Origin: Fermentimonas sp. | GTDB taxonomy: Bacteria; Bacteroidota; Bacteroidia; Bacteroidales; Dysgonomonadaceae | Length of the DNA stretch: 41,445 bases | NCBI GenBank assembly: GCA_028709385.1 | Contig: JAQVXD010000024.1 | Location: 1 to 41,445, forward strand | Direction of reading: 5' to 3' | Shown: positions 41 to 1,895 of the stretch, in pieces | How the letters are laid out: each line of letters opens with the position of its first letter | How positions within the stretch are numbered: the stretch's first letter is position 1 | The notes under the pieces: generated by a model | Told to the model about the DNA's origin: nothing | The model's input: only the letters and a program-made list of their open reading frames with translations | The model's database searches: none | Translations under genes and position numbers: made by a program

Positions 41-50
41 AAAAATTCTG

Positions 51-124
51 AGCCTCTTGTCGGATTCGAACCAACGACCCCGAGATTACAAATCACGTGC
101 TCTGGCCAACTGAGCTAAAGAGGC
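51..124 (-). tRNA. tRNA-Thr (UGU)
   Basis: On the minus strand the acceptor 5' half GCCTCTT (118-124) pairs with AAGAGGC (52-58). The D-arm is GCTC/GAGC, the T-arm is GTTGG-TTCGAAT-CCGAC, and the anticodon loop UUUGUAA gives anticodon UGU (Thr). The anticodon stem CGUGA/UCUCG has one U-U mismatch in the middle; I recall the same stem in Bacteroides tRNA-Thr genes, so this is probably a clade feature, not damage. CCA is not encoded. The gene follows hpf by about 100 bases and is probably processed from the rpsU operon transcript. Confidence 0.95.
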
Positions 125-225: not shown

Positions 226-528
226 TCAGAAGTTGTCTTTTGTTTTTTCCTTAGTCTTTATTATTTGTTTCTCAATAGCCATAACACACAGGTCGATAGC
301 TTCCTCAAATGTGTCTGCGGTTTTATTTGCGAATGCTTCTTTTTGTTTAAGATTCAGCTTAATGGCAGCATCTTTGTTCTTTACAGAGTCCGGTTTTATA
401 ACCTTCAGGATCACTTCGGCCAGAATAATTTCATCAGAAAAACGCTCAAGCTTTTTTATTTTTTTCTCAGTAAAAGCTTTTAACTGATCAGTTGCATCAA
501 AGTTTACAGATTGAATTGTTAGTTCCAT
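226..528 (-). CDS. hpf: Ribosome hibernation-promoting factor, short form
   Basis: This 100-residue protein has the HPF/RaiA (sigma-54 modulation, S30Ae) fold: it opens MELTIQSVNFDATDQLKAF, followed by the basic helix EKKIKKLERF and a second helix TFEEAIDLCVMAIEKQI. It binds the 30S decoding region and inactivates or dimerises ribosomes in slow growth. It is the short form, lacking the C-terminal dimerisation domain of long HPF. It lies 13 bases downstream of xerC on the same strand. The start is fixed by AGGAGGT at 535-541, seven bases before the ATG; this is a perfect Shine-Dalgarno sequence, very unusual in this window, and it abuts the xerC stop codon. Confidence 0.92.
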   Translation of the reverse strand: MELTIQSVNFDATDQLKAFTEKKIKKLERFSDEIILAEVILKVIKPDSVKNKDAAIKLNLKQKEAFANKTADTFEEAIDLCVMAIEKQIIKTKEKTKDNF

Positions 529-534
529 AAATTT

Positions 535-541
535 ACCTCCT
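535..541 (-). promoter_or_regulatory. Strong Shine-Dalgarno sequence before hpf
   Basis: The minus strand reads TAGAGGAGGTAAATTTATG: the xerC stop TAG, then a full anti-SD complement, then seven bases to the hpf ATG. The other starts I checked here (rpsU, xerC, dnaK, recN, tatA, aspS, eno, mdh, hsdM) show no comparable site, as expected for Bacteroidota. This marks hpf for a different mode of initiation. Confidence 0.85.
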
Positions 542-1432
542 CTATTTTTTTGCTCTTGGGTGAGCCTTTTGATAAGTTTTTTTCATTTCCTCAAATGTAA
601 CATGAGTATAGATTTCTGTTGACGAGAGACTCACATGACCCAGTAACTCTTTTACAGCATTAATCCCGGCACCGTTGTTCATCATTTCAGTTGCAAATGA
701 ATGACGAATCACGTGCGGACTCTTTTTAGACAGAGTAGGAATCTCATTCAAATGGTTGTGAATAATATTGTAAACAAGTATGGGATTCATTGGCTCTCCA
801 TCTTCTTTAACAAACAAAAATGGCGATTTGTTCTTAATTTCGGCGTCTCTTACATCTTTATATTGAAGAATTTTTTCCTTTGTCATATCTGAAAAAGGTA
901 TAAACCGCTGTTTATTTCCTTTCCCTGTCACTCTGATAGTGCATTTGTTGAAATCAATATCATTGTCTTTTATAGATATAACCTCGGCACGACGCATACC
1001 GGTTACGTATAAAAGCTCAATTAAAAAACGGTCACGGCATCCTGTAAAATCATCAGAGAAATTGTCAGGATTGTCGAGAATCTTAGTCATATCTCTGTCA
1101 TTCACAAAAACCGGAAGCTTTTTTGGGGTTTTAAGTCCTGAAATAAGTTTTACGGGATTTTTTGCAATAAGCTCTTTTCGCTCAAGAAAATTAAAGAACG
1201 CTTTCAGCGAGCTTAGTTTCCTGTTTACCGTACTGGGCTTCATTCCCTGCTCCATTAATGAGCTCATCCATATTCGCACGATATCACTGTCTATTTCAGA
1301 TGGAATAAATTCCCCTGTTTCCTCAACAATGAAATCTTCGAATTGAGTAAGATCTATTAAATAAGAAATCTCCGTCTGAGAAGAGTAGTTCTTCTCAAAA
1401 CGGAGATAATCAGTAAATTTTTCTTTCCACAT
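542..1432 (-). CDS. xerC: Tyrosine recombinase XerC/XerD-like
   Basis: This is a 296-residue tyrosine recombinase. Residues 1-90 form the SAM-like core-binding domain and about 110-290 the catalytic domain. All catalytic residues are visible: Arg147 (TGMRRAE), Lys171 (TGKGNKQR), His240 and Arg243 (HVIRHSFA), His266 (LLGH) and the nucleophile Tyr275 (STEIYTHV). The size and lack of accessory domains fit the Xer family that resolves chromosome dimers at dif. Its place between rpsU and hpf in a housekeeping operon argues for a resident Xer and against a mobile-element integrase. XerC versus XerD cannot be settled from sequence reading alone. Confidence 0.88.
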   Translation of the reverse strand: MWKEKFTDYLRFEKNYSSQTEISYLIDLTQFEDFIVEETGEFIPSEIDSDIVRIWMSSLMEQGMKPSTVNRKLSSLKAFFNFLERKELIAKNPVKLISGLKTPKKLPVFVNDRDMTKILDNPDNFSDDFTGCRDRFLIELLYVTGMRRAEVISIKDNDIDFNKCTIRVTGKGNKQRFIPFSDMTKEKILQYKDVRDAEIKNKSPFLFVKEDGEPMNPILVYNIIHNHLNEIPTLSKKSPHVIRHSFATEMMNNGAGINAVKELLGHVSLSSTEIYTHVTFEEMKKTYQKAHPRAKK

Positions 1433-1495: not shown

Positions 1496-1687
1496 TTATT
1501 CTTCGTTTTCCTGCATTTTCTGAACATAAACAGCGTGTTGTTTTTGTTTGCGGTTCTTCACAGAAGGCTTCATGTATGCCTGACGTCTGCGAAGTTCTTT
1601 AACAACCCCTGTTTTTTCGTATTTACGTTTAAATTTTTTCAAGGCTCTTTCTATATTTTCGCCTTCTTTTAATGGTACTACTATCAT
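1496..1687 (-). CDS. rpsU: 30S ribosomal protein bS21
   Basis: This 63-residue basic protein begins MIVVPLKEGENIERALKKFK and carries the conserved KRKYEKTGVVKELRRRQAY core of bS21, with a lysine/arginine-rich tail. bS21 binds the 30S platform near the 3' end of 16S rRNA. In Bacteroidota it takes part, with bS6 and bS18, in covering the anti-Shine-Dalgarno sequence (published for Flavobacterium). Here it is the first gene of rpsU-xerC-hpf-tRNA. No SD lies directly before its ATG; the only strong SD in its leader is about 160 bases upstream (1845-1853). Confidence 0.95.
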   Translation of the reverse strand: MIVVPLKEGENIERALKKFKRKYEKTGVVKELRRRQAYMKPSVKNRKQKQHAVYVQKMQENEE

Positions 1688-1709: not shown

Positions 1710-1763
1710 TTATTTTGTTAATATTATTGCAATCGGGATCAATAGAATTATCGGTATAAACAT
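1710..1763 (-). CDS. Possible 17-residue hydrophobic leader peptide
   Basis: In the rpsU leader the minus strand encodes MFIPIILLIPIAIILTK followed by TAA. The ATG is preceded by GAGGT at seven bases, and it overlaps the stop of a four-codon frame (ATG AGG TAT GAC TAA TG). The peptide would be one short membrane helix ending in lysine. Seen: the frame, the GAGGT and the stop-start overlap. Inferred: that it is translated. A reading frame this short could easily be chance in AT-rich DNA. Confidence 0.25.
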   Translation of the reverse strand: MFIPIILLIPIAIILTK

Positions 1764-1844
1764 TAGTCATACCTCATCTATTTATAAAATTATAGCTTTA
1801 TGTAATTATCCCTTTTCTCTATCTTGTCACTGAGTGTTGCAATA

Positions 1845-1853
1845 ACCTCCTTT
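1845..1853 (-). promoter_or_regulatory. Anti-SD complement at the 5' end of the rpsU leader
   Basis: The minus strand reads AAAGGAGGT, a nine-base complement of the 16S anti-SD, a few bases downstream of the expected transcription start. It is followed immediately by TTATTG and a possible seven-codon TTG frame ending in TAG, not by the rpsU start, which is about 160 bases further on. It could be a ribosome standby or sensing site. Confidence 0.6.
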
Positions 1854-1865
1854 CTATTTGGGCTG

Positions 1866-1895
1866 CAAAGATAATAATAAAAATATAAAGATCAA
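1866..1895 (-). promoter_or_regulatory. Promoter of the rpsU operon
   Basis: The minus strand carries the -7 box TATCTTTG at 1866-1873 and the -33 element TTG at 1893-1895, with a 19-base spacer. This matches the Bacteroidota housekeeping promoter exactly. It predicts transcription starting near 1860 and a leader of about 170 bases before rpsU. Confidence 0.8.

Follow-up and report, generated by a model that had tools for sequence, protein, structure and literature searches.

The heptamer AGGAGGT that separates xerC from hpf in a Fermentimonas sp. genome is, judging from its conservation and position, a real and selected Shine-Dalgarno (SD) site of hpf, and it lies in a genome that is SD-poor in general and in which hpf is an outlier. 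We propose, with a probability of roughly 55%, that this selected site is preferred by 30S subunits whose 16S 3′ tail is free, and that HPF would consequently rise with incomplete 30S subunits and ribosomes would be parked. The region under study sits near one end of the window (the whole stretch of DNA that was analysed, 41,445 nt of contig JAQVXD010000024.1) and comprises the following features:

1496..1687, minus strand: rpsU (bS21), 63 aa, with Tyr54; PF01165; no SD adjoining its start
542..1432, minus strand: xerC-type tyrosine recombinase, 296 aa; stop TAG at 544-542; PF00589; the upstream neighbour of hpf
541-535, minus strand: AGGAGGT, the SD site of hpf; adjoins the xerC stop, with a six-base spacer to the ATG
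226..528, minus strand: hpf, short hibernation promoting factor, 100 aa; ATG at 528-526; PF02482, E 3.9e-19
50..124, minus strand: tRNA-Thr, downstream of hpf

Read on the minus strand, the junction runs ...AAAATAG AGGAGGT AAATTT ATG (xerC stop, SD, spacer, hpf start), which confirms the placement of AGGAGGT against the xerC stop and before the hpf ATG that had been noticed from the sequence alone and sets the spacer at six bases. The hpf product clears the curated cut-off of PF02482 (Ribosomal_S30AE; 69.6 vs 23.7 bits), and hibernation activity is predicted for it. The name xerC is taken from context, Pfam yielding the integrase family PF00589. Gene order suggests that rpsU, xerC and hpf are co-transcribed on a shared mRNA. 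Evidence against the mechanism proposed here comes from one predicted fold of the junction in the window, that of minimum energy, in which the SD bases GAGGU are paired; the same bases are free in the centroid, and the junction region is no better folded than shuffles (z 0.29).

The rarity of such sites in this genome was assessed on 310 ORFs of at least 100 aa, 30 from the window and 280 from 20 further stretches (400 kb), with starts taken as the first ATG by a simple ORF caller, so that part of the start calls are wrong. By predicted pairing with the 16S tail, hpf ranks first of the 310 (-13.5 kcal/mol), and GGAGG ends 3-14 nt upstream of the start in only five ORFs, hpf among them, or in six when any ATG within the first 30 codons is permitted. 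On average, pairing is weaker at starts than in a mock window further upstream (mean energy -1.4 vs -2.3); pairing of -9 or below occurs at 9 starts vs 10 mock windows, and of -11 or below at 4 vs 2. Genome-wide, the pattern AGGAGGN4-9ATG occurs 123 times, vs 114 for its reversed control. The sequence-only reading had found nothing similar at nine other starts, and its observation thus extends to the larger set; its broader statement that the genome otherwise avoids SDs is borne out on average and fails as an absolute, as rpsR and an ExbD-type gene carry conserved SD-like sequences, each of which, in the one locus traced, falls within the last part of the preceding gene's coding sequence.

From 100 of the 123 places with AGGAGGN4-9ATG, 20 regions around 22 of them, mostly chosen for an A/T-rich spacer, were inspected. 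Four (L211, L216, L218 and L221) look by eye like plausible real starts, and conservation was scored for L221. The first three have an SD-like site before an unknown 260-aa protein, an AbgT-like transporter and a short lipoprotein-like protein, respectively (names by eye). L221 is the ExbD-type gene, for which GGAGG precedes the start in 27/30 genus loci (L257-L286; 30 loci of 52 matching genomes). It was set aside as a comparable case: the GGAGG falls within Gly-Gly codons of the upstream gene (locus L257) and may therefore be kept by protein conservation. Also rejected was an extended SD at L217 (-16.2 kcal/mol), which is apparently part of a terminator hairpin just past what reads by eye as the ribosomal protein gene rplT.

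Among relatives, the site upstream of hpf is widely retained. The genus group, in which matching records carry the names Proteiniphilum and Fermentimonas (32 genomes with a match, 30 with loci), has GGAGG upstream of hpf in 29/30 loci and GGAG in all 30. When 24 other families of the order were sampled with one genome each (22 with a match, 20 fetched), GGAGG was present in 15/20, AGGAG only in two (L065 and L070) and neither in three (L064, L066 and L073). The third set, named Bacteroidales, consists of the best 80 of 571 loci matching the bS21 of the window; it is for that reason skewed to close relatives, and it shares part of its genomes with the genus set. With hpf out of view in nine loci and no nearby ATG in one, 70 of these best 80 of 571 could be scored, and GGAGG lies within 24 nt upstream of hpf in 62 of them, where composition shuffles of the same 24 nt average 1.2 loci and reach 7 at most (2000 runs). 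In the same best 80 of 571, GGAGG precedes 0/205 other ORFs of at least 100 aa and 2/65 xerC starts, and pairing of -9 kcal/mol or below is found at 62/70 hpf starts, 4/205 other ORFs and 5/65 xerC starts. The median hpf pairing energy over the 70 loci is -12.15. Of the eight scored loci in this best-80-of-571 set that are missing GGAGG, L122 retains GGAG. No SD-like site is seen at hpf in L119, L124, L125, L126, L131, L142 and L163; several of these are labelled as rumen or gut isolates, and the SD may have been lost repeatedly. Across relatives carrying the operon, where the sequence-only reading staked its proposal on the SD being conserved, these frequencies leave that proposal unrefuted.

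Elsewhere in the class the site is patchy, whereas in Bacteroidales it is usual. We surveyed 119 genomes, 115 of which had a PF02482 match, and inspected 90, mostly those with better-scoring matches. Three of the 90 are Bacteroidales, all with an SD at hpf (3/3). In the other orders, an hpf SD of -8 kcal/mol or below is present in 24/87 loci (13/45 families), leaving 63/87 without a site at that threshold. By motif search, it is found in 19/64 loci with a xerC motif just upstream and in 5/23 without one. Two loci of other orders, L188 and L304, have an SD-like site (-9.3 and -8.4 kcal/mol) though no xerC motif was found upstream. Across the 46 other-order loci with rpsU in view, we detect no association between an hpf SD and an rpsU SD (both in 4, hpf only in 11, rpsU only in 12, neither in 19; Fisher p 0.52). 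Both this result and the loci that have no strong site, inside the order and beyond it, count against the mechanism proposed here.

The use of such a site depends on the state of the anti-SD. The 16S tail TGGAACACCTCCTTTCT was recovered in 10 copies from 5/7 genus genomes probed and ends in CACCTCCTTTCT, with an intact anti-SD; no 16S was detected in the assembly of the window itself, and the tail was matched in 0/3 genomes of other families, from whose assemblies the 16S gene may be missing. Residue 54 of bS21 is Tyr in 79/80 loci (best 80 of 571). In F. johnsoniae, the Y54A substitution in bS21 raises the output of an SD reporter (McNutt et al. 2023, PMC9976891, cited throughout from the parts of the paper available to us), and a paper on the Borrelia ribosome counts Tyr54 of the F. 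johnsoniae protein among the residues implicated in anti-SD sequestration (PMC10618245, in part). Taken with the 16S tail, the retention of Tyr54 makes a covered anti-SD plausible in these Bacteroidales. Strong SDs on rpsR have been described in the order (Jha et al. 2021, as cited in the available parts of PMC9976891 and PMC8710568), and we find GGAGG there in 21/24 genus loci and 4/6 others (30 loci of 57 matching genomes), with pairing of about -12 kcal/mol in most scored loci. Since these SDs had already been published, their detection shows that the scoring recovers a known case.

We considered whether the hpf site might serve something other than initiation by a particular class of ribosomes. 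One possibility is termination-reinitiation, in which ribosomes finishing xerC are retained at the junction and begin again on hpf. The site does lie at or near the upstream stop here, and among the best 80 of 571 loci, 65 in which two ways of locating the upstream stop agree include 58 with an SD, 14 of which place it 0 or 1 nt from that stop. Over the same 58, however, the SD follows the hpf ATG rather than the stop: its spacing to the ATG is 4-8 nt in 58/58, while the stop-to-SD distance varies from -21 to +113, and the SD survives in six loci where the gene gap is 30 nt and in L130, where it is 126 nt. Because the spacing to the ATG is fixed and the distance to the stop variable, the SD is best assigned to hpf initiation. 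Other close gene pairs in the genome are also mostly without an SD (4/98 besides hpf), and in those four the purine stretch lies inside the upstream gene, as the gene distances are -8 to +4. We therefore regard reinitiation as improbable. Less probable still, to the point of being very unlikely, is that the purine stretch owes its conservation to something else, for instance an RNA-binding protein or the stability of the RNA: its conserved core complements the anti-SD at canonical spacing, and the nine loci containing the junction that were scanned gave no Rfam match there. Protein conservation offers no explanation in 46 of the 58 loci (from the best 80 of 571), since the SD comes after the upstream stop there; in the other 12, it falls among the final codons of the preceding gene.

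A more serious contender, which we nonetheless hold to be unlikely, is that all ribosomes can use the SD as they would any strong initiation signal, hpf simply needing high output whatever the level of bS21. Conservation and good positioning of the site would fit this equally, and tail sequestration has been demonstrated in Flavobacterium only, within the partly available literature that we searched. The SDs on rpsR in Bacteroidales and on several other ribosomal genes in certain Bacteroidia (PMC9976891) also favour it. Yet starts in this genome generally lack an SD, in a sample of ORFs drawn regardless of expression level, and the retention of bS21 Tyr54 in 79/80 loci (best 80 of 571) also speaks against it. 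Moreover, AGGAGGU raised no output in wild-type F. johnsoniae, where slightly less product was obtained with it (PMC9976891), a decrease that also weighs against the mechanism favoured here.

We thus favour selective reading of hpf by 30S subunits with a free tail. By analogy with F. johnsoniae, the 3′ tail of 16S rRNA would normally be held in a pocket formed by bS21, bS18 and bS6, and because of this ordinary ribosomes would profit little from the hpf SD. Subunits whose tail is free, either new or damaged and without bS21 and perhaps bS18, could pair with the SD and would start more often on hpf, a preference carried over from the F. johnsoniae reporters; HPF output from the rpsU-xerC-hpf mRNA would therefore climb with the share of incomplete 30S. 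HPF would in turn park ribosomes, a step that we infer, as we do its physiological trigger. Since SD-less mRNAs are poor templates for in vitro initiation by ribosomes largely without bS21 (PMC9976891), such parking could help. A preference of bS21-deficient ribosomes for hpf is plausible; that a shortage of bS21 sets off hibernation is offered as a proposal. The size of the effect may be judged from a tuf reporter in F. johnsoniae, before which the same heptamer, AGGAGGU, was placed: mutation or depletion of bS21 increased its output by 40% to more than 2-fold, whereas SD-less reporters were hardly altered by bS21 defects (PMC9976891). An rpsU'-gfp fusion rose 3- to more than 4-fold, and by 60% in the depletion strain with inducer (PMC9976891). 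On the tuf reporter, a modest response of hpf to bS21 is expected.

The start of rpsU itself is mostly without an SD in these genomes (75/80, with an adjoining SD of -9 kcal/mol or below in 5/80 of the best 80 of 571), and in the available parts of PMC9976891 no Bacteroidales meet the published rpsU criteria. Further upstream in the window, the rpsU leader contains the following features:

1866..1873, minus strand: TATCTTTG, which matches TAnnTTTG; putative promoter box
1845..1855, minus strand: extended SD AGAAAGGAGGT, complementary to the 16S tail over 11 nt; ends 157 nt upstream of the rpsU ATG
1837..1845, minus strand: proposed left arm of helix P1, TTATTGCAA, directly following the leader SD
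1724..1732, minus strand: proposed right arm of helix P1, TTGCAATAA

We take TAnnTTTG to be the Bacteroidota -7 promoter box, and the extended SD is presumed to lie near the 5′ end of the rpsU transcript. An element of the form [AG][AG]GGAGGTTA is found upstream of rpsU in 25/28 genus loci with rpsU in view and is not seen in L012, L022 and L037 (189-274 nt in view); the TAnnTTTG box lies upstream of it, within view, in 23 of the 25. The GGAGG of the element is 149-344 nt from the rpsU ATG in 22/25, while in L018, L021 and L024 it starts 15 nt before the ATG and the element ends 9 nt before. Pairing with the U residues of the 16S tail is kept through G-U in the variants AGAGAGGAGG and AGAAGGGAGG. 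The element is also present in L089, L097, L112, L137, L151 and L152, the names there including Dysgonomonas, Petrimonas and Prevotella. We read it as a remote version of an rpsU SD, with a putative function. A helix directly follows the leader SD in many minimum-energy folds; helix P1 is nevertheless suggestive only, because for most leaders the shuffled versions form a longest helix at least as long, and the right arms of different groups do not line up. A mobile origin of the leader insert was considered and finds no support, the insert being single-copy in the genome of the window, and Rfam gives no match at it.

Together, these features raise the possibility, which we advance tentatively and consider rather doubtful, that the circuit has been rewired in Bacteroidales, with bS21-deficient ribosomes reading hpf instead of rpsU as a checkpoint and the leader SD as a possible second sensor. 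If so, incomplete ribosomes would be parked by a checkpoint encoded in the same operon, and the genus and its near kin would have retained the extended rpsU SD at the 5′ end of the mRNA, where ribosomes would land far from the rpsU start. Should selective reading of hpf prove correct, ribosome hibernation would, in a large order of bacteria, be linked directly to the composition of the small subunit, specialised ribosomes would gain a target other than a ribosomal protein, and the hidden anti-SD would have a use where the rpsU start is mostly without an SD (75/80, best 80 of 571).

In the literature searched, which was seen in part and without supplements, we did not find an hpf SD described in Bacteroidales, nor anything that connects hpf expression in the phylum with bS21 or the use of SDs. 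The word hpf is absent from the available text of PMC9976891, where hibernation occurs once, in the reference list, and from the main texts, as available, of PMC10783764, PMC8710568 and PMC6847099; in the accessible part of PMC10618245, which deals with HPF and bS21 in the Borrelia ribosome, we found no SD control of hpf. The published SD screen took in whole genomes for Flavobacteriales and ribosomal protein genes for other orders (PMC9976891), so that hpf beyond Flavobacteriales falls outside it.

Three known systems bear comparison. The SD of rpsR (bS18) resembles that of hpf in being strong and in occurring in the same genomes; it differs in that rpsR encodes a component of the pocket and, in the genome of the window, has its SD within the final coding part of the gene before it. 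Yeast ribosomes deficient in eS26 are a parallel in that the loss of one small-subunit protein alters mRNA choice, although the protein and the signal are different and about 1500 genes are affected (as described in the available parts of PMC9976891). The closest counterpart is rpsU autoregulation in F. johnsoniae, with which the present case shares an SD in a group that hides its anti-SD, a bS21 with Tyr54 and the very heptamer, AGGAGGU, tested there. McNutt et al. argue that this autoregulation requires an extended SD of less than -13 kcal/mol (PMC9976891); the hpf pairing is -13.5 here and has a median of -12.15 over the 70 loci (best 80 of 571), values obtained with a different energy program from theirs. 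In F. johnsoniae the target is rpsU, with a pairing of 9-13 bp, whereas here it would be hpf, with a shorter SD, and a bS21-dependent hpf would add a new target to the published Flavobacterium rpsU circuit.
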